Source: a virus
Reading direction: 5' to 3' (one strand)
Length of the DNA stretch: 64,000 nt
IMG/VR virus record: IMGVR_UViG_3300032308_002578
Location: 23,751 to 87,750 of that record
Part shown: positions 24,139 to 64,000 of the stretch, in pieces
How positions within the stretch are numbered: the first letter of the stretch is position 1
How the letters are laid out: each line of letters starts with the position of its first letter
Program-made: the position numbers and the translations under genes
Notes under the pieces: generated by a model
What the model saw: only the letters and a program-made list of their open reading frames with translations
Database searches by the model: none
Told to the model about the DNA's origin: nothing

Positions 24139-24354
24139 CGCCGCACCTGCCACGCGTAGGTTGCGATCTTCCGCCGCCCTGCGCTGACTGAACGGCTGCG
24201 TTCCACGCGGCCACCGGGCTCCACGCCCTAGGTCAGCGCGGGGCGGCGGTTGCATTCTGCCGCCCTAAATTTCGGGGCAAATCGCGGCATATTAAGTGTA
24301 CCCACTGTGTCGTATCAGTGGATTCTCATCACCGCCTTACAAGGGAGTTAAGGC
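24139..24354 (+). other. Intergenic region with a long inverted repeat
   Basis: No gene is visible. An 18-nt arm at 24171-24188 pairs with 24232-24249 with one mismatch, enclosing 43 nt that can also fold. There is no T-run, so this is not a classical terminator. It could end the structural transcript by another route or be a processed RNA or protein-binding element. Confidence 0.5.
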
Positions 24355-27895: not shown

Positions 27896-28259
27896 CATGC
27901 AAATCGAAGAGGTGCAGCAGTACCGGTGGTCTAGTTATGGCCCGTACGCGTTTTTTGTGGACATCGTTATGCCGCTTGAAATTGGTTCGGCGCAGATGAT
28001 CGTGGACCTCGCCCACAACCGGATCTGCGAAATGACCGTCTGCGACTACACCCAACCCAAAAACAAGGAGGCGTACCTGTGGCGTAATCCACTGTTTCGC
28101 AAGGCCCACGCCGCCGAAGCCCGGCAGCGCGGCTACACGAAGAAACAGATGTCGTACGCGTGGGACAACACACCGTGGGTCAACGTGCCGCCGGCGCAGA
28201 TATTCAAACGGCTGCGGGAAATGGTAGCCCGGGCAAAAAAGAAAAACCCGCCGAAGTGA
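27807..28259 (+). CDS. Basic hypothetical protein
   Basis: A 150-residue basic protein. The first 20 residues are KAKTKVKAKPKRRAR, then a globular domain with strands (YAFFVDIVMPLEIG) and a C-terminal Lys-rich tail. It overlaps the upstream gene by 89 nt. A bidirectional-looking terminator follows immediately. Confidence 0.5.
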   Translation: MPVKAKTKVKAKPKRRARLPSPQDFIAAGDMQIEEVQQYRWSSYGPYAFFVDIVMPLEIGSAQMIVDLAHNRICEMTVCDYTQPKNKEAYLWRNPLFRKAHAAEARQRGYTKKQMSYAWDNTPWVNVPPAQIFKRLREMVARAKKKNPPK

Positions 28260-28285
28260 GCATCGTTGAGAGGCCCGGCGGGTTT
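28244..28285. terminator. Bidirectional terminator between convergent genes
   Basis: AAACCCGCCG at 28244-28253 pairs with CGGCGGGTTT at 28276-28285. It separates the plus gene ending at 28259 from the minus gene ending at 28309, and the A- and T-rich flanks allow termination in both directions. Confidence 0.65.
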
Positions 28286-28308: not shown

Positions 28309-29481
28309 TCAGGCTTCTTCCTGCGCGGCCAGTTCAAACAACCGGTCAATGGTCAGGAGATCCTCGGCGGCTGGGTTGCGGGCAACCACCGACGCCTGCT
28401 TCTCGGACATCAACTGGTCGAGTGTGGTCGCCATGCCGCGGTCGAGCGTGGGAACAATAGCCGCTAATTTATCGCGGTCCATGTACACCCCGCCGGCACT
28501 CACGGCCTCAGCGAAATCATCGCCTAAGTAGGCGCGAACATCTTCGACGGCCAACTTCTCAAGGTCGTCAAGCGCGTACACGTTGCCCGTGGTTGTCTCG
28601 ACGTTCTGGTTCAGGAACTCGCGCGCAACCTTCTCGGTCACGGCAAACAGAACCTCCTCGGGCCGCGGCAGGCCACCCGCATCGTACAGTCGATACAGGT
28701 GGGTGCTGCGGTCGAAATTATCGACCGCGCTCGCCAACTTCAGCCGAGTGTCAACGGCCCGAGCCCTTTCGGGGTTCTGGTCGATGATCTCGGCCAACTT
28801 GGACAACTCACCAGCCAGATCTTTGTACTGGCGCTGGGTAAGCCGTACGCGGTCTTTAAGCATTTGGCTGGCCATCTTCGCGGCGCACGCGCCGTAGCCC
28901 GCAGCCAGTTCCAGCGTACCCTCGGCCACGCTGACATCGGCGTTAAAGTGGGCAGCCTTTTCCAGAATCTTGGTGGCAATGCGATTACGATCTTCGAAGA
29001 CAAATTCGTCGCGGTACTGCTTAAAGTGCGCAGCGGCAAACTTGACCTCGCTGCCGTTCCGCAGGGGCCAGTGCCGTTCCTTGCGCCCGTCAGCCGCCAC
29101 CCACACGATGCCGAAATCGTCGTCGGATACCGCGTCGAGCCCGGTCGAAGCAGTCTTTTCAAGTCCGGCGATCAGGCCCGAAATACCGAAGTACTCGGCG
29201 GCCTTATTAATGCGGGATTTAATGACATCGGCCTGCTTTTCCTCGAACTGCGCCTGCTTGTCCGCGAAGAACAAAGCCGACATCCACGTTGCGGGAGCCG
29301 TGTGACATGGGTAAAGTTTATTGTGCTGGTCCGCGTACAGGTGCCGAGGCAGCGTTTCGTCGCCGTTGAGACGCTCGTCCGCCGCAGACTTAACGAAGTC
29401 GGGCGCCGGGTGCAGCGCGGTCAACCTGTGCGTTTCACGGCCACTGATGTCGTGAGCATGGTCCAGCGGGATATTTGTCAT
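28309..29481 (-). CDS. Hypothetical phage protein, minus strand
   Basis: A 390-residue protein starting with MTNIPLDHAHD. Residues 30-90 carry HLYADQHNKLYPCHTAP, a motif I recall in other phage proteins of unknown role; the remainder is Ala/Glu/Leu-rich and helical (about 130-390). The start at 29481 shares CATG with the plus-strand start at 29480. A scaffold or virion-assembly role is possible but unproven. Confidence 0.6.
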   Translation of the reverse strand: MTNIPLDHAHDISGRETHRLTALHPAPDFVKSAADERLNGDETLPRHLYADQHNKLYPCHTAPATWMSALFFADKQAQFEEKQADVIKSRINKAAEYFGISGLIAGLEKTASTGLDAVSDDDFGIVWVAADGRKERHWPLRNGSEVKFAAAHFKQYRDEFVFEDRNRIATKILEKAAHFNADVSVAEGTLELAAGYGACAAKMASQMLKDRVRLTQRQYKDLAGELSKLAEIIDQNPERARAVDTRLKLASAVDNFDRSTHLYRLYDAGGLPRPEEVLFAVTEKVAREFLNQNVETTTGNVYALDDLEKLAVEDVRAYLGDDFAEAVSAGGVYMDRDKLAAIVPTLDRGMATTLDQLMSEKQASVVARNPAAEDLLTIDRLFELAAQEEA

Positions 29482-32116
29482 GGGTCTGCCTATTTCTTTA
29501 GTCCGCCGACATAACCACATGGGTGCCCTGTCGGCTTTGGGGGTGGCGCCGGAAATTCCAGCATTTCCGGCTGTGGTCAGTTGTCCATTATGTCAGCAAA
29601 ATACGCTTCATCTATTCGACGATATCGTAACAGATGGTATTTGGCTGTACTGTAACTCCTGTCTCGCCCATGGAAATATCATAACGTTTGGAGCCCAGAT
29701 CTGGAATACAAGCCTCCCGGCCGTATTAACCCGGTTGACCGACCTTGGGTTTATAGCCCCGGGCGATGGCGATAAGTGCGCTGGCGAGTACGAGCGCGCC
29801 CACAGCAAGTTACAGGCCGCCAACGTTTTCTGGGACGCGGCTGCTTCTCAGGTCTGGAATCACGGTGACGACATCATTGCCGTCCGGCTCCGCGAAGTGG
29901 GCGTGCAGCACGAGATTGTCGCCTGTCAGGGGCTCGTCGGCGTAGCCCACACCGACCAGATTGCAGAACTGTATGCCGCTATGGGTCGGTCCAAACCGGC
30001 AGCGCTGCGCCCGCGGGCTCCCAGCATCGTGTTTCCGTACTACGACCTGCCCGGGCGATTTACAGGGTTTTTTCTGGTCCAGTACGACGAAGACTTTGCC
30101 GTGAAAACATCGTTCGTTTCACGGGAGTATAAAAAGCGCCGAGCGGACGCTGGTTACTGGCATCTTATTTCGGGATTATTGCCTGTGCCGCAATTATTGC
30201 GGAATAGAATGTTTATCGTTGACGACCCGTTTTGGGCACTTTCGGCCCAGTGTCGGCAACTAAAATACGGCCTGCCGTTCTTGCCGCTGGCCGCCAGTTA
30301 TAGCGGGCCGGAAGCCACCAGTTACGGCCAGAACTGGCAGTCCTTTTATCCGACCACCCGATTGTTTCAGGGCCGCGTCAGCACGCCTGAGCTTGTCAGC
30401 CAAGCCTGCACGGCCAAGGGCTACGTATGTATTGCCCCGTTGGACAAAAACGAGTACACGCAAAAAAAGCCTAAATACAATCTGGTCCGGCTGGCGGCGC
30501 TTCAGGCCGTCGCCGAGACGTGGCAGTCGAACCTCCTTAACACGCTTACCGCATCCAGCGAACTTACGGCGTTTGCGTTCGCTACCCGGCTCCGAATTTC
30601 GGTTGACCGCCTGCAGATGTTTTTCAACAAACACGCCGATAAGTTTTCGACCAGGTTTGCCGAAAAAGTGCTCGACACCGTGAAACTGGCACCGGCAGCA
30701 CCCACCAAGATCTTCCGGCGGTGGACGCTGATCGAGCGCGACAACAAATGGTGGACGCAAGTCGGCCAGCAAATCTGCAACGCGCGGCCCGTCATTACCA
30801 AGATTTTGCAAGACGATGATGGCGAAAAAATGTACGGCGGGCAGATCTACGTCGGCGAAGAGGTTTACGAATTTACCGACAGCGCCGAAAAGATTGAACG
30901 GATGGGGCTGCTCGCGTACGCGTTCGCGCACATGGCGCCGCTGGGCAAACTGATCACCTACGACCGGCACTGGAACCCCAAGAGCCATTTGCTGGCCATG
31001 CAGTTGCACCCACCAGCGCTCGAAGTCGTGTCGTCCAAGATCGGCTGGGACGAACAAACAAATACGTTTCGGCTTGGTGCGTACGGCATCACGAATAGTG
31101 GCGAAATCACCGAAACACCAACGTTGCCCAACAAGCGGTTAAAGACCAGTTTTCCGGAACCCGTGCTCGTGGCGCCGATCAGCATTCGGCAGTTTTTAAC
31201 GACTAGTCCGCAAAACGCGTTTGTCTGGAATGTGTTCTCGTCTGTCACTGCGGCATTAATTGCGCCCATTCTGCGCAAAGACCCGGAAGGCACGATCATT
31301 TGCGGCCCGGCGTTCAATACCGCGGCCAAGATCGGGGCTGCCTTGAACTGCGAGCACGTCCAGACATCGGCGCTACGCAAATACGACGCCGGCCGGTTTC
31401 TGGACGCCGCGACCCGGGAAAGATCATGGCCGGTCTTTGCCTCTAGCGCGTTTAACGACACCCTGTTCAATGCCGCCTTGAGCAAATGCCACAATCAGGC
31501 GGCCGTCGTACGCATGACCGAAGATGCTGCGGCGGTGGGTGTCGGCTACGGTTGGCAGAGCATTGTCGGTGTCGCGCCGCCGCCCGATACCGATTTCTCG
31601 GCGCTGCAGTATGTGCTGCCGGGTTATATTCAGCGGCTGCTCAAAATGCGGATGAGTTTCGCCGCGCAAAATAAACATTTAACGACAGGTGTGCTGCAGG
31701 ACATCCATAAATGGCTGCAGGAAACCTACGACGCCACGTTTCATTTACCCCAAGCCTTAAATCAGTTAACGACCCCCGCAGACGCGCACAAAGCCATTAT
31801 GCGGGAAATTAACAGAGCCGTTCAGGCCGATAAAATAGCGATTATTCCCAGACCACGCCGGCGCGATCAGGCCAGTAATTACGTACTGCGCCGCAAAGAC
31901 CACTGGTGGTTAAACCGCAGGGCTATCGACAACTATCTTGCCGCCTGTAAAAATATTCCACCGAACTGGCTGGCAATTATAGACTTAATGCTTGCTGCCG
32001 GTGTGTACGCCGGAGAGGAAACCATCCACAACCTGCCCGGCATACTCGTCGATACGCGGTGGTGCGATCAATTCTGGGAAGATTGCGATTTGTCATCTAG
32101 TCGTGAAATTGGGTGA
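29480..32116 (+). CDS. Primase-like protein with N-terminal zinc ribbon
   Basis: An 878-residue protein. C35, C38, C58 and C61 form a zinc ribbon (VSCPLCQQ... YCNSCLAHGN) like CHC2-type primases. Residues 170-205 show an SIVFPYYDLPGRFTGFF-like segment as in TOPRIM-associated primases, and RMFIVDDPFWALSAQ near 240 could be the TOPRIM strand. The C-terminal half may carry the fused helicase or a partner domain; no Walker motif is obvious. The start is either 29480 (GCGGGA 9 nt upstream) or 29519. It probably synthesises replication primers, or is a related replication factor. Confidence 0.65.
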   Translation: MGLPISLVRRHNHMGALSALGVAPEIPAFPAVVSCPLCQQNTLHLFDDIVTDGIWLYCNSCLAHGNIITFGAQIWNTSLPAVLTRLTDLGFIAPGDGDKCAGEYERAHSKLQAANVFWDAAASQVWNHGDDIIAVRLREVGVQHEIVACQGLVGVAHTDQIAELYAAMGRSKPAALRPRAPSIVFPYYDLPGRFTGFFLVQYDEDFAVKTSFVSREYKKRRADAGYWHLISGLLPVPQLLRNRMFIVDDPFWALSAQCRQLKYGLPFLPLAASYSGPEATSYGQNWQSFYPTTRLFQGRVSTPELVSQACTAKGYVCIAPLDKNEYTQKKPKYNLVRLAALQAVAETWQSNLLNTLTASSELTAFAFATRLRISVDRLQMFFNKHADKFSTRFAEKVLDTVKLAPAAPTKIFRRWTLIERDNKWWTQVGQQICNARPVITKILQDDDGEKMYGGQIYVGEEVYEFTDSAEKIERMGLLAYAFAHMAPLGKLITYDRHWNPKSHLLAMQLHPPALEVVSSKIGWDEQTNTFRLGAYGITNSGEITETPTLPNKRLKTSFPEPVLVAPISIRQFLTTSPQNAFVWNVFSSVTAALIAPILRKDPEGTIICGPAFNTAAKIGAALNCEHVQTSALRKYDAGRFLDAATRERSWPVFASSAFNDTLFNAALSKCHNQAAVVRMTEDAAAVGVGYGWQSIVGVAPPPDTDFSALQYVLPGYIQRLLKMRMSFAAQNKHLTTGVLQDIHKWLQETYDATFHLPQALNQLTTPADAHKAIMREINRAVQADKIAIIPRPRRRDQASNYVLRRKDHWWLNRRAIDNYLAACKNIPPNWLAIIDLMLAAGVYAGEETIHNLPGILVDTRWCDQFWEDCDLSSSREIG

Positions 32117-33305: not shown

Positions 33306-33412
33306 AACAGTTTAAATGGCCCGCAAAAACGCCCCCATAGCATAATGATAATGCGGCTGATTTGTAATCAGCGGATGAAGGTTTGATTCCTTCTGGGGGC
33401 TTTTAAACTGTT
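33306..33412. repeat. 11-bp inverted repeat flanking the tRNA
   Basis: AACAGTTTAAA at 33306-33316 and its complement TTTAAACTGTT at 33402-33412 bracket the tRNA gene. They could form a processing stem or a remnant recombination element. Confidence 0.5.
33331..33400 (+). tRNA. tRNA-Thr (anticodon UGU)
   Basis: A 70-nt cloverleaf: acceptor GCCCCCA/TGGGGGC, D-stem GCAT/ATGC, anticodon stem GCTGA/TCAGC with loop TTTGTAA (anticodon TGT, reading ACA and possibly other ACN), T-stem GAAGG/CCTTC with loop TTTGATT. The D-loop has A at position 19 and the T-loop has T at position 56, a Watson-Crick swap of the usual G19-C56 pair. CCA is not encoded. Phage tRNAs commonly supply codons favoured by the phage. 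Confidence 0.85.
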
Positions 33413-37309: not shown

Positions 37310-37533
37310 TGGCGTTTCATGGAAAAGCCGGTGACCGCGTGCAGATGGTTTTCATGCCTAACGACCCCGAGCCTATTCCGGTTGGCACGACCGGCACCGT
37401 CGTTGGCGTTAACGATATGCCGTGGGGCCAAGATCGCATGACGCAGGTCATGGTCAAATGGGATAACGGCCGCAACCTGTCGTGCATCTGCCCGCCAGAC
37501 CATCTGGAAATCATTCCAGCCACGGCTGATTAG
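37306..37533 (+). CDS. DUF4314-like protein
   Basis: A 75-residue protein matching the DUF4314 pattern: GDRVQMVFMPNDPEPIPVGTTGTV, then VKWDNGRNLSCI and HLEII. It overlaps the upstream gene by 4 nt and ends 4 bases into the stop of the terminase gene (convergent). Role unknown. Confidence 0.7.
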   Translation: MMAFHGKAGDRVQMVFMPNDPEPIPVGTTGTVVGVNDMPWGQDRMTQVMVKWDNGRNLSCICPPDHLEIIPATAD

Positions 37534-40500
37534 TATTGGAAGTAGCCGCTGCCAATAGCGTCGTCGGCCCAGTCTTCGCCCGGTGTCTGGGCGGCAACGG
37601 CCCGTTCCGTTACGCGGCCAATGCCGGCTAACTGCGCGAAGTTGGGCCACGCGTCGTTAATGTGCCACGCGGCGGCACAGCCAATATTGACAGCCTGCGC
37701 GAAGTCATCGCTGAGCAGCGTATTTCGCGTGATTGTATAAATGTCGCCGCCCATACGAGACTCGGCTTTGTTTTCCACCAGCGCCAAGAAGTCGGCGATA
37801 AGTCCGGGCGAGTCTTGCGACGCCCAATCGTATTGGAAGAACCTGATCTGTTTTAACTTAATCGCCTGACAGGTGTAGAGCAACGACCGGGTCTTATCAA
37901 GACTGTAATGGGCCCGGTGATTAATCGGCGTCGGCGGCTTGTAAATCATCAAGTCCTGCGCGGCCGACCGGACAAGCCGCAGAGCCAGCACCCGGTCTAA
38001 ATTAAAGCCAGCCTGCACCATGACTGTTTCGCGGACCGTGCCGGCACCGGTGTAATCGTGCGCGACAAAATCGCAATTAAACGTGTTCGACCACTTCATG
38101 CACTCAATGGCTTCGGCCAGATGGTCGCCGCCGATCAGCAGGCGTTTCGACCAAATAACATCGATAGTGCCGTCCGGCCGAAAACCAAGTACGGCTACGA
38201 CAGTAAACGAGATACCCTCTTCGCCACCGCCGCCCCAGTCGATGGCCAGAATCCGATGTTTGTACTCCTGCAGGTGTTGGAAGCATTTTGGGTTAGGTTC
38301 TTTCTTGTTCTCCCAGTCGAGTAAACACGCCGCGCGCAGTTCTGTCTCGCTGATCAATTTCTGCCCGGCGTCAACAGACTCGCCCAAAACTTCGTTGTAG
38401 AACTGCGCCTGCGTCATGTTGCCGTAGCCTTCGCGCTTGAGCAGCAGCGTGTTCCATTTCTCGGGATCTGAGAAATGCAACGGCAGAATTAACTGCGGCA
38501 CGTGATATCCGGCGAACTGCCAGCGGCGATCAGGGTGCCTGTGCACCCAACGTCCGTGCCGCGGGCTGATAGGCTTGCGACATTTCGCGCAAATTGTGCC
38601 CGGATTCTTTTCACTAATGTGAATATTAAACGGGCCAATAATAGCGTCGAGGTCATGGTCGATAGATGGAATGTTCCAATACTTACAAGAGCGGCACGGG
38701 ATAAACCATTCAGCCTGCGATGAACGTTTGTATAACCCCTCTAACGGGTTATCTACGGATTTTGGCGTTCCTGTGAAATGGCTAATGGCATAGCGTGAAT
38801 AACTCATCGTCTCTTGAATGATTGGAATATGATCCGGGTCCATGTCTTGAATTTCGTCAAGCGCGATACGGTCAGCAGACACACCGCGGACACGATCTGC
38901 GTCGAGCAGCGCGAACGAGAACAGCATTAACGACTTGTTCTTAAAGCTGCGCTGCAATACAGAATTCTCAGTATCGCTCCCCGCCCACTGCGACTTGATG
39001 GGCGACTGATCAATGAATGGGCGCACGTAGTTGTTCGAGAATCTGCGGATCTGCTCGTACAACGGCGTAACGTACAGAGTCTTGAAAAACGGAATCGAGT
39101 TCGCCACCACGATGCCGTGCGCCGCGAGCGAGGTTGAATTGTGATTTACAATACCGTCGACGACGTAATTGTGCTCGCCGCTGACTTCGATGTCCCAGCA
39201 CGGCAGCACGCCCAGCGGCTCGATCTTTTCGATTTTGTCCCAAATAATATCCGGACTTGCGAGCCGCTCTAGTTCTGAAAGTTTTGGATGTTCGGGACAA
39301 TGTTCTCGAAAATGCTCAATGTACTTTTTGAGTTTGGCGCGGGTCAACGCGTGCTTGGGTTTTAGACGCAGACCGCCGCTCAAAAGAGATTTGCCGTTTT
39401 GCGCCCAGCGAATACTCTCGGCAATCTCGCTGATTAATTCGCGAACTTCCAGCGGCACGGTGTCGCGGTTGTTGTTTTCAACCGCTTCAGGCAGCACTAC
39501 AGGCGGTTTTCCCGGCACTTGGAATTCATCAAGAAAACGACGCCAGCCATCTCTTGTTTCGACGTGCACGATGTACGCATCGTTGCAGTGTACGCGTGCG
39601 CCGTTTTTATCGCGGTAACCAGTTGGTCGGACTTTGATTGTGGCCGGAATGCCGAACTTTAACAGCATCGCTTTGATATCAAACGCCAGATCTCGCGATA
39701 TAGTGCAATATGTGATCGCTGGCGCCCGCTGCTTGCCGCTAGCGGGGCGGATCATACCATCCGTTGCCCATAAGCGGCTCAAAAACAGCGCGGCGTCACC
39801 GCGCGACAGATCAAAAACCCAATCGGGCAGGCTTTTTTCTAACGCGTTTTTACCGTACAGCCTGTCTTCTTCCAGCCAGCCGCGAATCACACCGCCACGA
39901 CTCTTTGAGATGTCGATACGTACGGCATTCGTTTTGACTTTGCTGACAAACGTAGCGGGGCTACCCTGCACACGCGTGATTACCCCGTTCACCTCGTTTA
40001 TCACTTCAGCGCTGTCTGTTGTAATATTAATTGCGTTAGTCACGCATCCGTCACCGATAAGATACGCCGTGATGATGATGCGATCACGATCCACGCGTCG
40101 ATCGCCGAACGTGCCGCCTTTACGCACTGCGCAGACGCGGTCGCCAACCCGTAAGTTCGCACCGGTTGTCCAGCCGCTGACTTTGAGTAATGGATGCGTG
40201 TCGGCCAGTTCGATCACGGCACCCGTTCGCGTCGTAACTCGGTAGACGTGCTTTCCTGAGTGCCGCGCGGTGTCGAGAACGCGTACAACTTTCGTGCGGT
40301 ACTGGTTGTCGATACCGAGAACAAAGTCGCCAATTTTAAGCTCATCGCCCCGAATTCGCCGACCATTTGCTAGCAACACTTTGTGTGTTGAACAAATGAC
40401 CAGACTTTTTGATAATTGACGCCCTGTTTTCCACACCTGATTCTTGGGTGTTAAAACGCGGAAAAGGGGCGAAAAAGGGTAGTGATTATTTAGACTGTAC

Positions 40501-40727
40501 GGGCGTCCATTAAGATTCAATACAAGCGGCAAAATTGGTTCCAACGACGGGAACGCATACTTACTGGCTAACTCACGCAGTATCGCGGTTCGTTCTTTAA
40601 CGGACTCTGGATCTGACGTGTCGACAGACAGTAGTTCATTGACCAGTCCTTTGATTCCCGTGTTAGGAATTTCAAGGGCTGGTGATTCGTGCGGGCTACC
40701 ATCCCGCATTATTTCTTCTGGTGCCAT
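37530..40727 (-). CDS. terL: Terminase large subunit with intein
   Basis: A 1065-residue precursor. Residues 102-107 (GRQLSK) are the first half of the ATPase P-loop; the second half (STSLAAHG) starts at residue 531. Walker B IALDE is at 621-625, then TPKS at about 654, a CxxC/CxxC pair (678/681 and 713/716), and the nuclease acidic residues D830 (AIDWG), D891 and D1007-1008. The spliced enzyme would be about 642 residues. It is minus-strand among plus genes and divergent from a small plus gene (CATATG at 40725-40730). An upstream TTG (40787) and a downstream ATG (40709) are alternative starts; ribosome sites are weak at all of them. Confidence 0.85.
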   Translation of the reverse strand: MAPEEIMRDGSPHESPALEIPNTGIKGLVNELLSVDTSDPESVKERTAILRELASKYAFPSLEPILPLVLNLNGRPYSLNNHYPFSPLFRVLTPKNQVWKTGRQLSKSLVICSTHKVLLANGRRIRGDELKIGDFVLGIDNQYRTKVVRVLDTARHSGKHVYRVTTRTGAVIELADTHPLLKVSGWTTGANLRVGDRVCAVRKGGTFGDRRVDRDRIIITAYLIGDGCVTNAINITTDSAEVINEVNGVITRVQGSPATFVSKVKTNAVRIDISKSRGGVIRGWLEEDRLYGKNALEKSLPDWVFDLSRGDAALFLSRLWATDGMIRPASGKQRAPAITYCTISRDLAFDIKAMLLKFGIPATIKVRPTGYRDKNGARVHCNDAYIVHVETRDGWRRFLDEFQVPGKPPVVLPEAVENNNRDTVPLEVRELISEIAESIRWAQNGKSLLSGGLRLKPKHALTRAKLKKYIEHFREHCPEHPKLSELERLASPDIIWDKIEKIEPLGVLPCWDIEVSGEHNYVVDGIVNHNSTSLAAHGIVVANSIPFFKTLYVTPLYEQIRRFSNNYVRPFIDQSPIKSQWAGSDTENSVLQRSFKNKSLMLFSFALLDADRVRGVSADRIALDEIQDMDPDHIPIIQETMSYSRYAISHFTGTPKSVDNPLEGLYKRSSQAEWFIPCRSCKYWNIPSIDHDLDAIIGPFNIHISEKNPGTICAKCRKPISPRHGRWVHRHPDRRWQFAGYHVPQLILPLHFSDPEKWNTLLLKREGYGNMTQAQFYNEVLGESVDAGQKLISETELRAACLLDWENKKEPNPKCFQHLQEYKHRILAIDWGGGGEEGISFTVVAVLGFRPDGTIDVIWSKRLLIGGDHLAEAIECMKWSNTFNCDFVAHDYTGAGTVRETVMVQAGFNLDRVLALRLVRSAAQDLMIYKPPTPINHRAHYSLDKTRSLLYTCQAIKLKQIRFFQYDWASQDSPGLIADFLALVENKAESRMGGDIYTITRNTLLSDDFAQAVNIGCAAAWHINDAWPNFAQLAGIGRVTERAVAAQTPGEDWADDAIGSGYFQY
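39138..40406 (-). mobile_element. Intein with LAGLIDADG endonuclease in the terminase P-loop
   Basis: A 423-residue insert between the P-loop Lys and the following Ser. It starts with Ser (SLVICSTHKV), has block B ELADTHPLLKV near residue 70, LAGLIDADG-like motifs AYLIGDG (about 114-120) and LFLSRLWATDG (about 207-217), and ends CWDIEVSGEHNYVVDGIVNHN, Ser+1. Splicing restores GRQLSK-STSL. Ser rather than Cys as first residue is less common but splicing-competent in other inteins. Confidence 0.85.
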
Positions 40728-40919
40728 ATGGGTAAACGTGGTTTCAATCGTTCGTATCGACCCGGTCCTGATGACAACGAGTTGCAATGGCTCGAAGAGG
40801 GCATAAACATGCTCGTCCGGTTTGCCTTTTTCGGTATCGCCGGCATTCTACGCGGTACGTGCAAAATTGTCATCGGAATCATTTTGTTGCTGTACGGGGC
40901 CTGTACTCGACAGCGCTAA
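40728..40919 (+). CDS. Small membrane protein
   Basis: A 63-residue protein: a charged N-terminus (GKRGFNRSYRPGPDDNE), then a roughly 30-residue hydrophobic region (ILRGTCKIVIGIILLLYGA) that should be a membrane helix. The ATG directly abuts the minus start of terminase (CATATG). No signal for function. Confidence 0.45.
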   Translation: MGKRGFNRSYRPGPDDNELQWLEEGINMLVRFAFFGIAGILRGTCKIVIGIILLLYGACTRQR

Positions 40920-44388: not shown

Positions 44389-45888
44389 ATGTACGCGTAC
44401 TTCAACGACACGACCCGGGAACTGATCGCTTTCATGCCCAGCAACCGCGGTCGCCCGGCCAAGCACCACACTATGATCGAACTGCATGGCGCTGAGATCT
44501 CCGCCAGCCTCGTGCCCGCCGAAAAGGTTGCCGATTTTGCAACCGCGGCCGAGGTGAAGAATTATGTGACAAATAATGGTGAGTCGGCCAAGACCGATAC
44601 CGCGCCCACGCCCGATAATGTGCTGTACAGCGCGCTGGTTGCAATGCGCGATGTACTTACGGATGGCGGACATGCGGGCAGTAAGGCTATGCAGTTAGTC
44701 ACGACGCTGGTCGACGACTGGGAGCCTGCGCGCCGCGACGACCGGCTGGACGACTGGTGCGATCGGGCCGGACTGGCGTTCGGCACGCTGCGGCGTACTG
44801 TTAACGCCATCATGAACGACCGCGGCTACGGCTGGTTCTACACCGGCGCCGTGCCGGCCGAGGCTACAGCCGTGCCGGCCGAGGCTACACTGGCAACCCC
44901 AGCGGCCACGGCCGAAAAGGAAGAAGAAGTCAGTTATGGCTTTGCCAGGATGTCTGGCAATACGCCCAAATTGAACGTCGTGGGCAAAGAAGACGAACCG
45001 GCGGACGATAATGGCGAGCACGGCGTGTTCTACCCGAAGCAGGACAAGACCTACGTTATTAACAAGCAGGTTGAGGGTCTGTTTAAAATTCTGGAAGCTT
45101 CCAGCAAGAAGTGCCCGCAGAACGTAAACCTGATCGGCCCACACGGCTGCGGCAAGACTGAACTGGCGATCCAGTTCGCGGCGCGGCTGGGCCGGCCGCT
45201 GCTGATTATGGACTGCGCCAACCTTCGCGAGGCCCGCGACTGGTTCGGCTACAAGACGGCAAAGAACGGTACGGTGTACTGGCACGAGAGCCAGTTCGTC
45301 CGCGCCGTGCAGGCTGGCAACCACGTGATTCTGCTCGACGAGTTGAATCGCGCCAACCCTAACCTGCTTAACACCCTGATGCCGATCCTTGACGCGCGTC
45401 GCTTCACGTACCTCGAAGAGCGTGGCGACAAGATCATCGTCGGACCGGAGACTGTGTTCTTTGCGTCGATGAACGAGGGCGCGGGTTATACCGGCACCTC
45501 ATCGCTCGACCGGGCCATCCGCGACCGCTTCCCGCGCGCCGTGGAACTGACCTATCTGGGCGAGAAGGACGAAATCAAGTTGCTGATGAACCGCACGGGC
45601 GTCGATAAGGACATTGCTACCCGGCTTGTCCAGATGGCGAACAAGGTTCGTCAGGACGCCACGGGTCTGTCGGCTACGCTGACGGAGAGCCTGTCTACTC
45701 GGCAGTTGCTGGCGGCAGCGCACGATTTCGCTCTTGGTGGTGTGGATACCCTGCAGTTCACTATCACGAACCACTTCTCTCCGGACGGTGACGACGACAG
45801 CGAGCGGGTGAAGGTTCAGAGCCTGATTCAGGGCAAGTTCGGCGATCTCATGGCGGCACAAGCCGCCGCGGCCAATACCGGAGCCTAA
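44389..45888 (+). CDS. MoxR/CobS-like AAA+ ATPase
   Basis: A 499-residue protein. Residues 1-200 are a non-conserved N-terminal domain including a tandem AVPAEAT repeat. The AAA+ core has Walker A GPHGCGKT (250-257), Walker B ILLDEL (314-319), sensor-1 Asn near 362 (FASMNEG) and LDRAIRDRF (373-381), typical of CobS/MoxR ATPases, which work with VWA proteins. Directly followed by a VWA gene (3 nt gap), so the pair is probably a chelatase- or chaperone-like machine acting on an unknown protein complex. Confidence 0.8.
   Translation: MYAYFNDTTRELIAFMPSNRGRPAKHHTMIELHGAEISASLVPAEKVADFATAAEVKNYVTNNGESAKTDTAPTPDNVLYSALVAMRDVLTDGGHAGSKAMQLVTTLVDDWEPARRDDRLDDWCDRAGLAFGTLRRTVNAIMNDRGYGWFYTGAVPAEATAVPAEATLATPAATAEKEEEVSYGFARMSGNTPKLNVVGKEDEPADDNGEHGVFYPKQDKTYVINKQVEGLFKILEASSKKCPQNVNLIGPHGCGKTELAIQFAARLGRPLLIMDCANLREARDWFGYKTAKNGTVYWHESQFVRAVQAGNHVILLDELNRANPNLLNTLMPILDARRFTYLEERGDKIIVGPETVFFASMNEGAGYTGTSSLDRAIRDRFPRAVELTYLGEKDEIKLLMNRTGVDKDIATRLVQMANKVRQDATGLSATLTESLSTRQLLAAAHDFALGGVDTLQFTITNHFSPDGDDDSERVKVQSLIQGKFGDLMAAQAAAANTGA
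44848..44889 (+). repeat. Tandem 21-bp repeat in the AAA+ gene
   Basis: GCCGTGCCGGCCGAGGCTACA occurs twice in a row (44848-44868 and 44869-44889), encoding AVPAEAT twice in the linker before the ATPase core. Confidence 0.8.
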
Positions 45889-45891
45889 TTA

Positions 45892-48800
45892 ATGGCAAAG
45901 CAGTGGAAGTCCTTGTGGCATGATTACGACGATGAGGGCAACGGCCCGGAAGAGACTAAGAAGTCCTCCGGTCCCCGCCCAAATCCGAACTATCGCGGTA
46001 ATAACGACGACGCTGTTGAAGACGAATTTGCCAGCGACGAGTATGGCGGTTTTGGTTGGAACGGCAAGTTCAGCGGCGGTGGCGGCGGCAGTTACCGGTA
46101 TGACGACGCGTTCGACGACTCAGAAGATCACTGGTATCGCAAGAACAGTTTCCGTTACGGCAAGCACGCCGACTATTCGCCGTCCAGCCTGTTCCGGTCT
46201 GCGTTCAGCCGGAGTTATTCTTCCAGTAGTGGCGACAACGAGGCCACGAACCGAGCAATTCGCGCCCTGCGTAATTTAACGCGCAGTGCAAATACGATCG
46301 TGGATAAGTCAACCGGAATTAAGAACGAATTCGCCGTGCAGTTTAGCTCGGGTGCCGACAACAACGGCACTGTCGCCAAACTGAACGACGAAAAGCAGCG
46401 GGTCGTGTTCGTGTCTCCGGACTCGTTGCTGGCTGCAGCGACAACGGAAGACGAGGACGCTGTTGTTGACGCCCTGACTGGTTTTGTGCTGCTGCGTGTG
46501 CAGATGGCGCAGGACATTGCGACGGACGTCATCGACAAGATTAACAGTACTGGCGCGCATCTAGCCGGCGTAAAAATCGCGGCGCAATTCGTTCGCCCGG
46601 GTGCCCGCGACATGGCGAAAATGACTACGGAAGAACTTCACGGAATGTCGGAGACCGCGGTTGACGAGTATCTGGCCGGCATGCTGGCTAAGAGCGTGTT
46701 AATGCGGCTGGCGCGGCGAAAGGTCGTGTTGAATTGGGGCGGTTTTGCGCCGTACTTTATTCGACACGCCAAGAAGTTTGCGGCGGTCAAGGCTAATCTT
46801 GAGGCAGCGGCGCTTTCGGCCGAGTCGGTTGTCAGCAAGTTGGGATACAACATGTTGGCGGACGAGGAGCCGATTGCAATCGACAAGGTGTTCGAGGATC
46901 TGGCCGCCAAGCATCTTGGCGACGAGGTTTCAATGGATAACCTGCTGTCGACGTGCCGGGCGCTGGTCAACGACATCCGCGGCGCGCTGGCCGCAGACAG
47001 CGCGGCTGTACCGGGCGAAATGGAAGCTGCGTTGAACGAGATGCTGGATAAGGCGCAGGCAGCGCAAAAAGCAGCCGGCAGCGGCGACTCGGATCTCAAG
47101 GATTTTCTTGAGAAGTTTGCGGCGTCGCTTATGACGTCAAACGAGGCGTCTGAGAAGTCTCGGCAGGAGCAGACCGCGGCCGACCTGAAGACGGATGAAT
47201 TAAGCGATAAGTTGCGTGGGACTAGTTCGCTGGAGCAGTTATTAAAGAAACTGTCCGCCGAAATTGAGCGTATGTCGGAAATGCTGGAAGCCGCAAAAAG
47301 CGAAAACCCAGCAGTGGCCGAAAACGCCCGGCGGCAGATGACTGCGATTCGCGCCAATATGAGTTATCTCGCCCAGTCCCGGCCGCAAGCCGTGGGTGCG
47401 ATGCAGAGCGCGGGCATGAAGCCCGATCTCGATGCCATGCTGGCTGAGTGCGGCAAAAAGCATGAGATGTCGCTGGCGGAAGCGCAGGCGTTAAAAGAAC
47501 GGGTCGAGGCGTTGGCTGAAAAAGCCGCGAAGGTTGCCAAGGCCCAGCGTGACGCGCTCAAGAAAGCAGTTGCGGACTCGCTGGCCGATATGAGTAAGCG
47601 ATTGGCAGAGGCACGCGCCCGAGCCGAATCGGAGCAAGAACGGGTGAACAAGGTCAAGGCCGATCTCGCGCCAGCAAATGTTGCCGGCGCTATTAAATCT
47701 TCGGCCGACGGCATTATGGCAAACATTCTGGCTACGCTGGAGCAGGCCATAGTGCGGCTGAAACACGCCGAAACGGAAGTTGCAAAGCACGCGGCCGCTG
47801 CGGCGGGAGCGCGCTCAACGGCAACACTCGATAAGGCGCACAAGACCGCACGGGCAGGTACAGCGCACGCTGCAAATAATTGCGGACGGTTCGACCCGGC
47901 TAATTATGGCTGGTACCATTACGATGACACTATTAATCAGTTGCTCCGCGCGCTGGCGTCACTAACGTCAGTAGGTGCCAAAAAAGCCGCTGAAAAAGCT
48001 GTCAGTGATGTGCTTAATCGCCGCAGCGTCAGTCCGGCCGGTTTCGCGGCAGCCATGGCCCGCTCGGCTGCCGGCAAAGCGTTCGACAAATTGCGCGCCG
48101 ATGAAGATCACGCGCGTGACGAATATGACGAAGACGATGCGGCCGAGTTTGATACCGAGAAAGCCGACAAAGAAGAAATCGACACCGGGCTCGATAAGGA
48201 TGTGCTGGCGCAGATAAACAAACTGCTTGAAGCTATGCGATCGGCCGGGCTGGATACCAGCGCGGCCACAAACCTCGGCACCGACGCCGCGGCGAAATTG
48301 CAGAAAATTCAAGAAGAGTCCAGCCCAGTCGACGGCGAACTGTTCGGAGAAACCATCGCTATTAATAGTAAGGTTCTCGACAGCGAGGCTATTGGTCGTG
48401 TTAACGACGAGGCGCGAAATGACCCAGAGGAGGAGTACATCGCCTACCTGAGTCACAATTCCGCCAAGCCCAAGATCGGTACGGCCAAGGAAAGCCACGT
48501 AACCGCCACCCGTAGCGTGCGTAGCGTGGTCGTCGGCGAGGTGCGAAAGCAGCACCGCGGGTCGATCGAGCGGGTGCGGAGTGCCCTGCAGTTCCAGAGC
48601 GGCAAGCGAACAGCCGAGAACTTCGGCTTGCGCTCTGGCGATCTGGACGAGGGCAGCCTGCACAAGTTAGGGTACGACTGCGATCATATTTGGTCGCAAA
48701 AGACGATCTCCAAGTTGCCCGACGTTGCCGTGGGTATCTTGGTCGACCAGTCTGGCAGTATGTCCGGTAAGAAGATCGCAAACGCGCGTACGATGTGCAT

Positions 48801-49311
48801 TATTCTGGCAGAGGCGCTCAAAAAGATTGCCGGCGTGCGGCTGTATGTGTACGGCCACACCGCTAACAACGGCGGGCACGACCTGACGATCTTCGAGCAC
48901 TACACGCCGACGAATACTGACATCACGGCGCTGGGCGGTATTCAGTCGCACTCCAACAATTACGACGGATACGCGATCAAGGACGTGGCCAAGCGTTTAT
49001 CGCTCGACACGGCCAAGAAAAAGTATTTGTTCGTAATTGCTGACGGCTTGCCTAGTGGCCACGGCTACGGCGGTCATGAAGCCGAGAAGCACGTGACAAG
49101 CGTGTGCAAGTTTATTCGGGATCGGTTGAAGATTGGCTTGAACGCATTTGCGGTTGGTGTCCCTACTCACCAGCAAAACGCGTTCAAGAAACAGTACGGC
49201 GACGACCACGTGGTGTTTATTAATGACATCATGAAGTGCCTGCCGCAGATTGTTCGCTTCTTGCGAAACACGCTGCAAAAGGAGCGGAAACTGGTCGGCA
49301 TCGAAGATTGA
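45892..49311 (+). CDS. VWA-domain partner protein (CobT-like)
   Basis: An 1139-residue protein. N-terminal 110 residues are Gly/Ser/Asp-rich. Residues about 120-730 are mostly helical with coiled-coil stretches (SDKLRGTSSLEQLLKKL, AEKAAKVAKAQRDAL), followed by an acidic segment (about 740-780). The C-terminal VWA domain has the MIDAS DQSGSMSG (D952, S954, S956) and a helix with KKKYLFVIADGLPSG. It pairs with the upstream AAA+ ATPase as in CobS/CobT. Likely target engagement; which complex it remodels is unknown. Confidence 0.8.
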   Translation: MAKQWKSLWHDYDDEGNGPEETKKSSGPRPNPNYRGNNDDAVEDEFASDEYGGFGWNGKFSGGGGGSYRYDDAFDDSEDHWYRKNSFRYGKHADYSPSSLFRSAFSRSYSSSSGDNEATNRAIRALRNLTRSANTIVDKSTGIKNEFAVQFSSGADNNGTVAKLNDEKQRVVFVSPDSLLAAATTEDEDAVVDALTGFVLLRVQMAQDIATDVIDKINSTGAHLAGVKIAAQFVRPGARDMAKMTTEELHGMSETAVDEYLAGMLAKSVLMRLARRKVVLNWGGFAPYFIRHAKKFAAVKANLEAAALSAESVVSKLGYNMLADEEPIAIDKVFEDLAAKHLGDEVSMDNLLSTCRALVNDIRGALAADSAAVPGEMEAALNEMLDKAQAAQKAAGSGDSDLKDFLEKFAASLMTSNEASEKSRQEQTAADLKTDELSDKLRGTSSLEQLLKKLSAEIERMSEMLEAAKSENPAVAENARRQMTAIRANMSYLAQSRPQAVGAMQSAGMKPDLDAMLAECGKKHEMSLAEAQALKERVEALAEKAAKVAKAQRDALKKAVADSLADMSKRLAEARARAESEQERVNKVKADLAPANVAGAIKSSADGIMANILATLEQAIVRLKHAETEVAKHAAAAAGARSTATLDKAHKTARAGTAHAANNCGRFDPANYGWYHYDDTINQLLRALASLTSVGAKKAAEKAVSDVLNRRSVSPAGFAAAMARSAAGKAFDKLRADEDHARDEYDEDDAAEFDTEKADKEEIDTGLDKDVLAQINKLLEAMRSAGLDTSAATNLGTDAAAKLQKIQEESSPVDGELFGETIAINSKVLDSEAIGRVNDEARNDPEEEYIAYLSHNSAKPKIGTAKESHVTATRSVRSVVVGEVRKQHRGSIERVRSALQFQSGKRTAENFGLRSGDLDEGSLHKLGYDCDHIWSQKTISKLPDVAVGILVDQSGSMSGKKIANARTMCIILAEALKKIAGVRLYVYGHTANNGGHDLTIFEHYTPTNTDITALGGIQSHSNNYDGYAIKDVAKRLSLDTAKKKYLFVIADGLPSGHGYGGHEAEKHVTSVCKFIRDRLKIGLNAFAVGVPTHQQNAFKKQYGDDHVVFINDIMKCLPQIVRFLRNTLQKERKLVGIED

Positions 49312-60198: not shown

Positions 60199-60552
60199 AT
60201 GAAAGAAATGGACCCCAAATTGGCTGAAGCGTTAGCCAAGCTCGAAGAACTTCAAAGTAACACAGACTGGCCAGCCGATATGGAACTCAACGGCTACAAG
60301 TTAGTCTGCACCTGTCCGGCTTGTCCTGAGCAGTATGACGTGCACAGCGCGGCAACTGGCGCTAAGGTGGGCTACCTGCGCCTGCGCCACGGCTGGTTTC
60401 GGGCGGATGCGCCTGCCTGCGGCGGCGAGACTGTGTACGAGTCTCGCCCCAAGGGCCGCGGCATTTTTGACGACGGCGAGCGTGTTCCAGAAATCACCAA
60501 GGCCCTCGAAGCCATTACGGCGTACTGGGCCCGCACCGGAGGCAACGACTGA
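60199..60552 (+). CDS. Conserved hypothetical with CxCPACPEQY motif
   Basis: A 117-residue protein: NGYKLVCTCPACPEQYDV, VGYLRLRHGWFRAD, CGGETVYESRPKGRGIF. It matches a phage/plasmid family known to me only as conserved hypothetical. Two or three Cys could bind a metal. Confidence 0.6.
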   Translation: MKEMDPKLAEALAKLEELQSNTDWPADMELNGYKLVCTCPACPEQYDVHSAATGAKVGYLRLRHGWFRADAPACGGETVYESRPKGRGIFDDGERVPEITKALEAITAYWARTGGND

Positions 60553-60553
60553 C

Positions 60554-60862
60554 ATGACGTTTGAAGAACTGGAATTTAAGGTAACGCAGTGGGCGCACGC
60601 CCGGCAGATTATTCCGAACAGCAAGCCTGCCGCGCAACTTATGAAGACGATGTCGGAGTTAGGCGAACTGGCTGATGCTACGCTCAAGACCGACTGGGCC
60701 GAGATCGAAGACGGCGTAGGCGACGTGCTTGTAACACTTATTCTGTATTGCCGCCTGCAGGACATCGACATTGTTGCCTGCTTGGCGGGCGCCTATGCCA
60801 CGATCAAAGACCGCAAAGGCACGCTGACACCTGAAGGGATCTTCGTAAAGGACGCGTCGTGA
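60554..60862 (+). CDS. MazG-like NTP pyrophosphohydrolase
   Basis: A 102-residue protein with the MazG helical pattern: SKPAAQLMKTMSELGELADA, IEDGVGDVLVTLILYC (EDGxGD), and AYATIKDRKGTLTPEGIFVK. Acidic residues at SELGEL and EDGVGD would bind magnesium. It hydrolyses (d)NTPs to monophosphate and pyrophosphate; in phages it may tune dNTP or (p)ppGpp levels. It overlaps the next tiny frame by 4 nt. Confidence 0.8.
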   Translation: MTFEELEFKVTQWAHARQIIPNSKPAAQLMKTMSELGELADATLKTDWAEIEDGVGDVLVTLILYCRLQDIDIVACLAGAYATIKDRKGTLTPEGIFVKDAS

Positions 60863-61247: not shown

Positions 61248-62345
61248 GTGCTCGATTTCGACTTTGCTCGATTTGTCAATAAATTCAAACTGCCCACGTG
61301 GGCGGTGGCAAAAGTCGGGCGAACGAAGAGCCAGTCTTTTGCCATCGAGTTCACACTGAGTCTGTATCGTAAATCAGGCCGCAGAGCCGTACGCCGAACG
61401 AATACGTTTCGGAAACTGTGGGCGAGCCGGCTGAAAGAATTGCTGTCTCGGCAACTCTGGACGCTCGACACCAAAGGCTGCCAAGACCCGTACCACGCGG
61501 ACTTTGACCTCAAAAAGTTCGTGCTGTCGTATCGGCGCGCGATCTGCTGCCGGCCGGCGTATCTGTATTACATGCGGAAGAAAGAATGCTCGATCAACCA
61601 TCAGATTCGCCCGTGCTGGCGGACAAAGATCTGCCCGTTCTGCTGGGCAAATATCTCGATGGCGCAGTATCGATACGTCAAAGGCTTTATTAACAAGAAA
61701 CTCAAGAAGCATGGTCATCACACTGATCTTGTGGCCGTATGTCGTGTTGTTCGGCAGTTTGTACCTGCTTACGGGTTTGATCCGCGTGTGGGCTGCGATA
61801 CGGAACAAATTATCCGCCTATCGCCGATCTTAAAAAAAGCCGTCGAACAGCACCGCAAGGCGTACGCTAAACTTGCCCGCAGCAAACAGGTCAGCCGCAA
61901 AACGACAGGCACGCTTTGGCGCATAGTCGTCATCCCCCGCGAAATGGGCTGGGATGTCGAGACGCGGCAGTTTGTGCTGGCGGAAAGAACCATAAAACGT
62001 TTGCCGCTGGTCAAGATCCGCGGCGCCAAAACCGTGTATAACGTTTCGCTGCGGCTGTCGCGTAAGGGCAAGCCGGCTGAAGAATTCGACGACGCCTTCT
62101 ACCAGTTGCTTGGCGAGTTCTGTCGGTATCCCAAGGAATTACTCACGGCAGACGCAGAATTAACGGCGACGTACCTACGCGTTGTCCACGGGCTACGGCT
62201 GCTGACGGGTACCGGCGTGTTTACCAAAACAGGTCGGGTACTGGTGAAATTTTTCCAGTCGCTGGCGCAAGAGCAAAAAATAAAGAAAGACTGCAGTGAC
62301 AAAGAAAAAGACGGAGGCGGCAAAGCGAAAGCGTCGGCAACGTAA
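61248..62345 (+). CDS. Basic zinc-finger protein, possible replication initiator
   Basis: A 365-residue very basic protein with GTG start behind ACGAGG. Residues 99-133 show YRRAICCRPAYLYY and CWRTKICPFCWANISMAQYRY, resembling CxxC-type zinc segments of plasmid/phage Rep proteins. A middle part (about 165-310) has a strand/helix pattern with Arg/Lys. No HUH or Walker motif is visible, so the Rep idea is an inference from the zinc segment and basic charge. The end overlaps the next gene by 50 nt. Confidence 0.5.
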   Translation: MLDFDFARFVNKFKLPTWAVAKVGRTKSQSFAIEFTLSLYRKSGRRAVRRTNTFRKLWASRLKELLSRQLWTLDTKGCQDPYHADFDLKKFVLSYRRAICCRPAYLYYMRKKECSINHQIRPCWRTKICPFCWANISMAQYRYVKGFINKKLKKHGHHTDLVAVCRVVRQFVPAYGFDPRVGCDTEQIIRLSPILKKAVEQHRKAYAKLARSKQVSRKTTGTLWRIVVIPREMGWDVETRQFVLAERTIKRLPLVKIRGAKTVYNVSLRLSRKGKPAEEFDDAFYQLLGEFCRYPKELLTADAELTATYLRVVHGLRLLTGTGVFTKTGRVLVKFFQSLAQEQKIKKDCSDKEKDGGGKAKASAT

Positions 62346-63444
62346 ACTTGATCACACGACGCCGACGATCCGCGCGCGGGTTCTTTATATTTGCGATTAT
62401 CTTTTTGGCGGCATCGTGCCGTTGTTTGCGCAGACGATTGACCTTGACGGCGCACACCTGCGGCTATGCTTGTACCACGGGTCGCGGTTTTCGCCGGCAA
62501 TGCTCGCACAAATTGTCAGCAAGACGAACATACGGGCGGAGTGGCTGTTGTGCGGCATAGGCCCGATGCTCGCGTCCGATGCGCCCGAGGGGCTTGAAAC
62601 GCTGGTTTTGCCGCGTACTCTTGGCTCGGCTTTTTCGCAGTTCGACACAAGCACGGTGCCGGCTTTACCAGTTCCGCGAGCAGTGGCGGCAAACAGCTAC
62701 GATCCGGGCGAGGTCACTCCTGCGGCTGTGGCGGCGGCACGTTGCGTGGCGGCGGCCCGCGGCGCAGACAAACCCGTATGGCTGTTCGCCGGCAAAAACG
62801 CCCTGTACGCCGGCGCCCGCCCTGTTATTACTTCTATGCTTGAGAAGAAATACGTGACAGGTGTTGGTCTGACAGCGGCCGCCGTTGAACTAGAGTTGCC
62901 GCCGTCTCCGCTGACGGACACATCGCATACCGCCAAACTGGGCGCACAGGCAGGGTTTGGTTTTGGCGAGTCGCTTTGCCGTTGGGGTGCGCCGCCGGCG
63001 ACTAGCGTATTTGTGTCCGCGCAACGCTGCAATGCGCCCATAACAGTGCATGCAGAGTTTGGCGAAGTCTGCGACCATTTTCGGGCTGGCTTGCATGGCG
63101 CTGAGATGGGTGCTGTTTTGGGCGCTGCGCTGTACGTCGATTTGCTGATATTTACTGAAAGCGTTCGCTGTTTCGCCGGCACTCCCGGCGGCGTGTGCAT
63201 TGCGCTCGGCGATGGTGCGCGGTTTGGAAACCTGTTTGTGCAGGCGTTGCAGACAAGTCAACAGGCAGGCAATGGCCCGTATCGTGACTTCTCGTTCGTG
63301 CTTGTGGACCGTGCGCCAGATGCCAGTCTGGAGCATTTGATCGGATGTAATGGCGGTCAATTTCATTTCATTCAAGGAGACCTTGCGTCAGGGGCCGATG
63401 GGCTGGCAAAAGCCTGTGACGCAGTTTTTGACGGAACCATATGA
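62296..63444 (+). CDS. CI-like HTH fused to a deoxyhypusine-synthase-like domain
   Basis: A 382-residue protein with GTG start in an overlap. Residues 22-95 match a repressor-type HTH: IRARVLYICDYLFGG...AEWLLCGIGPML as in CI proteins. Residues 160-375 resemble deoxyhypusine synthase-like Rossmann domains: VWLFAGKNALYAGARPVI, VTGVGLTAAAVELEL, PITVHAEFGEVCDH, GVCIALGDGARFGNLFVQAL. I cannot identify the catalytic Lys of true DHS, so activity is doubtful; it may bind NAD or a nucleotide and act as a sensor. Confidence 0.65.
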   Translation: MTKKKTEAAKRKRRQRKLDHTTPTIRARVLYICDYLFGGIVPLFAQTIDLDGAHLRLCLYHGSRFSPAMLAQIVSKTNIRAEWLLCGIGPMLASDAPEGLETLVLPRTLGSAFSQFDTSTVPALPVPRAVAANSYDPGEVTPAAVAAARCVAAARGADKPVWLFAGKNALYAGARPVITSMLEKKYVTGVGLTAAAVELELPPSPLTDTSHTAKLGAQAGFGFGESLCRWGAPPATSVFVSAQRCNAPITVHAEFGEVCDHFRAGLHGAEMGAVLGAALYVDLLIFTESVRCFAGTPGGVCIALGDGARFGNLFVQALQTSQQAGNGPYRDFSFVLVDRAPDASLEHLIGCNGGQFHFIQGDLASGADGLAKACDAVFDGTI

Positions 63445-64000
63445 ATACAAAAAACAAGATGGCGGCGTCCGACAGAGTGCGGGCGCTGGCAGATAAGTTA
63501 GACACACAGGATGAGACCGAGACGCTGGAGGTTATGGCGCGGCTGATTGATGCGTTGCAATACGCGCAGGGTTACTCGTACAGCAACCCGATGATCAAGA
63601 TCGCCAATTTCGTAGCCAGCGTAGCCGACGTACCGTGGGATGCTTTACGGTTTTCGCTAACCAAGGCTGTCGCAACAAATGGGCGGGCATATAAAGTGGC
63701 TCAGCAATACGGCGCCGAGCTAAAAGACATCCCGAAGTTGTTGCTGGAAGCGGTAACGCTGTTTGCAGACTTGCTGGCTGAGAATGTCGTGGCTGACCCG
63801 GAAACGGCAGCGGCGGATATTTTTGACGCCGTGGTGGCCGAATTAGCAGAAAATTCGAAGGCTGCTCTGGCTCCGGCGCAGAAAACGCTGCCGCCGGAGA
63901 TCTACAGCCCCAAGATGGTCAACCGTGTTTTCGAGCCTGCGCCGTTTTCGATGGAACTGGCGGGCAAACTGCAGATGACGCTGGTGACCTACACGAGCAC
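63441..64000 (+). CDS. Hypothetical protein (partial, runs off the window)
   Basis: ATG 63441 overlaps the previous stop (ATGA). 186 complete codons are visible without a stop; the sequence is helical, with MARLIDALQYAQGYSYSNPM, NFVASVADVPWDALRFSLT and an Ala/Glu-rich middle. The rest lies beyond 64000. Unknown. Confidence 0.55.
   Translation, partial: MNTKNKMAASDRVRALADKLDTQDETETLEVMARLIDALQYAQGYSYSNPMIKIANFVASVADVPWDALRFSLTKAVATNGRAYKVAQQYGAELKDIPKLLLEAVTLFADLLAENVVADPETAAADIFDAVVAELAENSKAALAPAQKTLPPEIYSPKMVNRVFEPAPFSMELAGKLQMTLVTYTS

Follow-up and report, generated by a model that had tools for sequence, protein, structure and literature searches.

A phage gene joining a CI-type helix-turn-helix signature to a GSU2086-like domain of the deoxyhypusine synthase superfamily

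The question raised by this locus is whether a phage has placed a domain of the deoxyhypusine synthase (DHS) superfamily behind a repressor-type helix-turn-helix (HTH) and, if so, what such a protein might do. The original prediction, made from the DNA alone, described an N-terminal CI-like DNA-binding domain and a C-terminal DHS-like Rossmann domain encoded by one reading frame. The window analysed here, a stretch of 64,000 nucleotides, comes from a virus record of 87.75 kb, of which it covers positions 23751-87750. The gene and its immediate surroundings are arranged as follows, with coordinates given in the window.

61248-62345, plus strand: upstream open reading frame (ORF) of 365 amino acids containing a cysteine-containing stretch and overlapping the fusion gene by 50 bases
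62296-63444, plus strand: HTH and GSU2086/DHS-like fusion gene, 382 amino acids with a GTG start, defined by the ORF and its translation
62296-62355, plus strand: lysine- and arginine-rich N-terminal tail, residues 1-20, read from the sequence
62416-62583, plus strand: putative CI-type HTH region, residues 41-96, for which the statistical support lies in residues 62-96
62584-62622, plus strand: linker, residues ~97-109, with no family match and low pLDDT
62623-63441, plus strand: GSU2086-like (DHS-superfamily) domain, residues ~110-382, defined by NF052581, hhalign, and AlphaFold2 with Foldseek
63441-63998, plus strand: downstream ORF, clipped by the contig end, sharing a four-base ATGA overlap with the stop of the fusion gene

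The ORF from 62296 to 63444 exists exactly as predicted. Its frame runs without any break, is open for just four codons 5' of the GTG, and holds both regions within a single gene. The gene lies in a tight row, and the record stops approximately 560 bases beyond it. The upstream ORF, for which the best Pfam match was only Rep_1 with E=0.74, probably shares a transcript with the fusion gene, and the downstream ORF is probably translationally coupled to it via the ATGA. A MazG-domain ORF is also found 5' of the fusion gene (60335-60862, plus strand). A second contig, IMGVR_UViG_3300033571_023457, shows 99.97% DNA identity over 5,905 bases and carries 903 bases (301 codons) of the fusion gene, all of them identical. 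This contig almost certainly derives from the same or a sister virus and, being so nearly the same virus, confirms the assembly but does not represent an independent lineage.

Several further features were recorded elsewhere in the window. A GpA-type terminase large subunit is split by a LAGLIDADG-containing intein (37530-40787, minus strand), genes for an AAA protein (CbbQ/MoxR-like) and a VWA protein (CobT-like) stand side by side (44389-49311, plus strand), and a tRNA-Thr (TGT) is present (33331-33401, plus strand). Two structured RNAs were recognised by Rfam. An abiF RNA (45.8 bits; 28246-28282, minus strand) lies just 3' of a 403 amino acid ORF (28309-29520, minus strand) in which Pfam detected no Abi domain, only DUF6582 under the cut-off. 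A DUF3800-VIII RNA (24173-24247, plus strand) scored just over its gathering score; the ORFs adjoining it gave no Pfam match, so that no DUF3800 partner of the usual kind was detected.

The C-terminal domain is, as predicted, DHS-like, with sequence, profile and fold evidence in agreement. It belongs to the DHS superfamily and its nearest relative is the uncharacterised GSU2086 family, not DHS itself. The C-terminal ~270 residues match the NCBIfam model NF052581 (GSU2086_dom) in two stretches with E=1.2e-15 and 57.9 bits, a score that does not reach the curated cut-off of 250 bits. A genome search with the same model gave 39.6 and 18.3 bits, and all matching sites of the record fall inside the fusion gene. 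Pairwise blastp of the domain against bacterial GSU2086 members, which were taken from genomes reached by a 16S pattern scan, gave E-values down to 3e-12, and hhalign against GSU2086 gave a probability of 96.9% (E=1.9e-10). For the fusion protein itself no direct significant sequence match to DHS and no match to the Pfam DS model (PF01916) was found. Pfam DS was recognised in 10 of 12 bacterial GSU2086 members (weakly but consistently, best 1.9e-5), and an ArgZ-like C-terminal Rossmann domain in 11 of the same 12 (also weakly, best 9e-6). Consistent with this, hhalign linked the GSU2086 family to DHS-like enzymes (E=1.7e-5) and to proteins of the ArgZ-C/TIGR00300 type (E=1.5e-7), and NCBIfam gave the same links to DHS and to ArgZ-C/ornithine cyclodeaminase for the viral members. 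As the fusion protein alone has no DHS match, its resemblance to DHS runs through GSU2086.

Further evidence came from structure prediction, which the original prediction had proposed for the whole protein and which supported a DHS-type fold in the C-terminal domain only, the first 134 residues being mostly below a pLDDT of 50. The AlphaFold2 model was built with eleven viral relatives, in an alignment that contained GSU2086 relatives but no DHS sequences. From residue 141 onwards the per-block mean pLDDT was mostly 80-97, with weaker stretches at ~201-220, 251-280 and 341-350, and the pTM was 0.62. A single-sequence AlphaFold model was uninformative (mean pLDDT 43.7). When the alignment-based model was compared with the PDB by Foldseek, all 50 of the 50 matches listed were ArgZ/AgrE, the LOR/SDH protein 3c2q or deoxyhypusine synthases, with E-values from 5e-8 to 1.5e-4 among those listed and the C-terminal domains of ArgZ/AgrE best. 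Matches to DHS chains had E-values of 8e-6 to 1.5e-4 and TM-scores to the target of 0.36-0.48, moderate values that are expected since the N-terminus is not resolved in the model. Because GSU2086 relatives were in the input, the fold supports the superfamily assignment but is partly dependent on the sequence evidence. A fold search of the BFVD viral structures with the model gave nothing significant, and the single match of the whole protein in a phmmer search of the PDB was rejected as low-complexity.

In Geobacter sulfurreducens, GSU2086 itself is annotated as a hypothetical cytoplasmic protein and is encoded between hldE (GSU2085) and gmhA (GSU2087) (PMC5585712). Several of the bacterial members fetched here likewise adjoin gmhA or hldE and, in one bacterial phylum, 121 of 198 sampled genomes had a member above the cut-off. 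Viruses also carry the family. In IMGVR_UViG_3300032053_000215 (L148/L156) a GSU2086 gene lies in a row of hldE-C-like gene, GSU2086, hldE-N-like kinase and sugar-nucleotide epimerase (L148:4372-8039), an ADP-heptose-type cassette which suggests that GSU2086 acts in the ADP-heptose pathway. At least eight further viral lineages have GSU2086-like genes, none with an HTH (L149, L150, L152, L157-L170), with L167-L170 carrying a divergent form of only ~210 amino acids. A typical viral member found no match among 50,697 phage records. In contrast to the heptose/LPS gene neighbours that are common in bacteria and present in L148, no homologues of HldE, GmhA or the epimerase were found in the 87.75 kb phage record.

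The fusion protein shares with the GSU2086 family a homologous core and much of its glycine scaffold but differs in its low score, its lost polar residues, a deletion and the HTH extension. To determine the extent of the loss, the fusion protein was aligned with family members from bacteria (12) and from viruses (10); 67 columns are invariant among the bacterial sequences. The fusion protein keeps 15 of the 24 family-invariant glycines and prolines and 8 of the 27 family-invariant polar residues, compared with 20-27 of the 27 in nine of the ten other viral rows and 14 in the short divergent L167. The invariant polar set of GSU2086 comprises K, HD.E, TSE, GS.V.PE.F.K, YR and HHEI. In the fusion protein the lysine of GAH.IK.G is replaced (Y171), as are the HD pair (L199, E200) and the residues of S....PE...K (D306, G311, N312, Q316), and the tyrosine of YRP (before R339) and the C-terminal glutamate (A364) are also lost. 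All of these positions are kept in 10 of the 10 other viral rows and the loss is thus specific to the fusion protein. The polar positions still present are T209, S210, S237, T250, H252, D282, D338 and R339, and ~25 residues around FGM..ET are missing. The prediction that the catalytic lysine is missing was correct and can be widened. DHS (PF01916) shares superfamily and fold with the phage domain, but the SWGK motif seen in DHS-like comparison proteins (A4) is absent, and most of the polar positions invariant in GSU2086 (K, HD, S..PE..K, Y, E) have been lost. The ArgZ/AgrE C-terminal domain and the TIGR00300 ornithine cyclodeaminases (PF21570, LOR/SDH), which gave the best PDB fold matches and are linked by profile via GSU2086, are likewise enzymes, with AHD and SIRDDGPLP motifs, whereas no HD pair is found in the phage protein. 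Judged by their conservation, the lost positions would be catalytic in GSU2086. That residues common to every one of the ten other viral rows have been lost favours a role other than catalysis, and the C-terminal domain is likely to be a pseudoenzyme.

The N-terminus is likely to carry a CI-type HTH, although the sequence evidence is concentrated in one part of it. Residues 62-96 (RFSPAMLAQIVSKTNIRAEWLLCGIGPML plus flanks), which span the final helices together with the 'WLL.G.GP' motif, match phrog_9710 with E=3e-5 when the N-terminus is taken in isolation, and phrog_9710 matched the N-terminus with E=2.6e-6 when the whole phage was searched. The same residues match the repressor families phrog_2328 and phrog_4 less strongly. 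Vibrio phage VPHZ6 has an annotated HTH regulator that matches phrog_2328 with E=8e-14 and phrog_9710 by the same stretch, and this pattern shows the motif of residues 62-96 to be the C-terminal end of a CI-type HTH. When 16 HTH domains of the CI type (15 Phage_CI_repr domains from bacterial genomes and that of VPHZ6) were combined into an HMM, the N-terminus scored 20.7 bits (E=3.3e-5), compared with 7.2 bits for the best of 2000 shuffles and 7.7 bits for the best other ORF of the window. With this HMM no other ORF of the phage resembles the HTH type of the fusion protein; an apparent second HTH ORF in the control set (orf76) proved to be the fusion gene itself. No Pfam HTH model matched the N-terminus, and neither it nor the whole protein gave any Pfam match over the cut-off; a match to R_equi_Vir (E=0.01-0.02, under the cut-off) was judged to be due to chance.

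The predicted CI-like N-terminus therefore stands for its signature at residues 62-96, by both phrog_9710 and the HMM, and less firmly for helices 2-3, the helix-turn-helix proper and the expected site of DNA contact, which have no significant match of their own. Their assignment comes from position and from the sole PDB sequence match of the N-terminus, a gapless alignment of residues 41-87 to the transcriptional regulator 4ich at a weak E=0.78, which is also the one match to span helices 2-5 in full. It is possible that the lysine- and arginine-rich tail makes non-specific contact with DNA. CI-type repressors (Phage_CI_repr PF07022, phrog_2328, phrog_4) have the helix 4-5/WLL.G.GP signature in common with the fusion protein but carry an S24/LexA-type C-terminal domain, in place of which the fusion protein has its GSU2086/DHS-like domain.

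The original prediction knew of no description of this combination, and the searches made here found the fusion in no other lineage. In genome contigs and uncultured viral contigs just the near-identical contig or members without an HTH were found, in searches that were pattern-seeded and could miss distant relatives. No relative of the fusion protein was found among cultured phages and plasmids, and none of the viral or bacterial GSU2086 members examined has the HTH extension. Frames of 500-880 codons around some bacterial GSU2086 genes appeared fusion-like but, in the cases inspected, the upstream part looked like an out-of-frame extension with no HTH. A literature search returned nothing useful on the pairing of an HTH with a DHS-like domain, nor on a link from TIGR00300 to the nickel pincer. 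The joining of an enzyme-like ligand-binding domain to an HTH is itself familiar from RpiR with its SIS domain, SorC/DeoR, the ROK repressors and Rex, which offer an analogy in mode of action, but we know of none among them that employs a domain of the DHS superfamily. The pairing seen here is a new combination within a known principle, that of regulators with enzyme-derived sensors.

We favour, with a probability of roughly 0.55, a one-component phage transcription regulator in which a catalytically dead, enzyme-derived C-terminal domain serves as a sensor or oligomerisation module. The CI-type HTH would bind an operator, and the C-terminal domain, standing where an S24-type domain would be, would oligomerise and sense a small molecule whose binding alters the oligomer and so switches DNA binding. 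The metabolite- or NAD-sensing regulator of the original prediction is plausible on this reading. Candidate ligands are nucleotides, NAD(H) among them, and metabolites of the enzyme from which the domain would descend. NAD is possible since AgrE and human DHS have both been crystallised with it (PDB titles 6lrg, 1dhs), and a heptose ligand would have to be derived from the host, as the phage has no ADP-heptose genes. Against the regulator reading count the lack of a significant match for helices 2-3, a region modelled with a pLDDT below 50, the absence from the phage of heptose genes that might point to a ligand, and the result of a short repeat scan of the regions near the gene, where the operator-like repeats that had been looked for were not clearly present. 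So broad a loss of residues may, in addition, have abolished the ligand site. No tyrosine integrase was found in the phage record and a classical lysogeny repressor is thus not indicated.

Alternatively, the C-terminal domain could be a purely structural oligomerisation module of a DNA-binding repressor or architectural protein that has no ligand. HTH proteins require dimerisation, DHS-family enzymes are oligomers, and many glycines stay where most of the invariant polar residues have gone; some 270 residues would however be a costly means of dimerisation alone in a phage genome, and we regard this explanation as somewhat unlikely. An enzyme whose active site has been remodelled, and whose HTH-like extension is unused for DNA binding, seems an improbable reading. 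Phage metabolic genes of the GSU2086 family do exist, as in the L148/L156 cassette, and the eight polar positions listed above persist, but K, HD, GSAV.PE.F.K, YR and E, kept even in the most divergent short viral form, are lost except for the arginine. Strong divergence, the deleted FGM..ET segment and the want of a second lineage with the fusion would also suit a relic gene, either in decay or peculiar to this lineage, that lacks a strong function. This we consider very unlikely given the intact 382-codon frame, the compact gene row and the ATGA coupling, together with the identity of the covered part on the second contig, even though the two viruses are almost the same.

If the regulator reading is correct, the DHS superfamily would join the enzyme folds that have been turned into transcriptional sensors. 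More tentatively, and with rather less than even odds, the protein may represent a new class of one-component regulator, in which, inside the infected cell, a DHS-superfamily pseudoenzyme from the heptose-tied GSU2086 branch detects a nucleotide or sugar-phosphate signal and governs a phage transcription programme via a CI-type HTH. GSU2086 genes are carried by uncultured phages, and a ligand still bound by the phage protein would point to the substrate of the GSU2086 enzymes.
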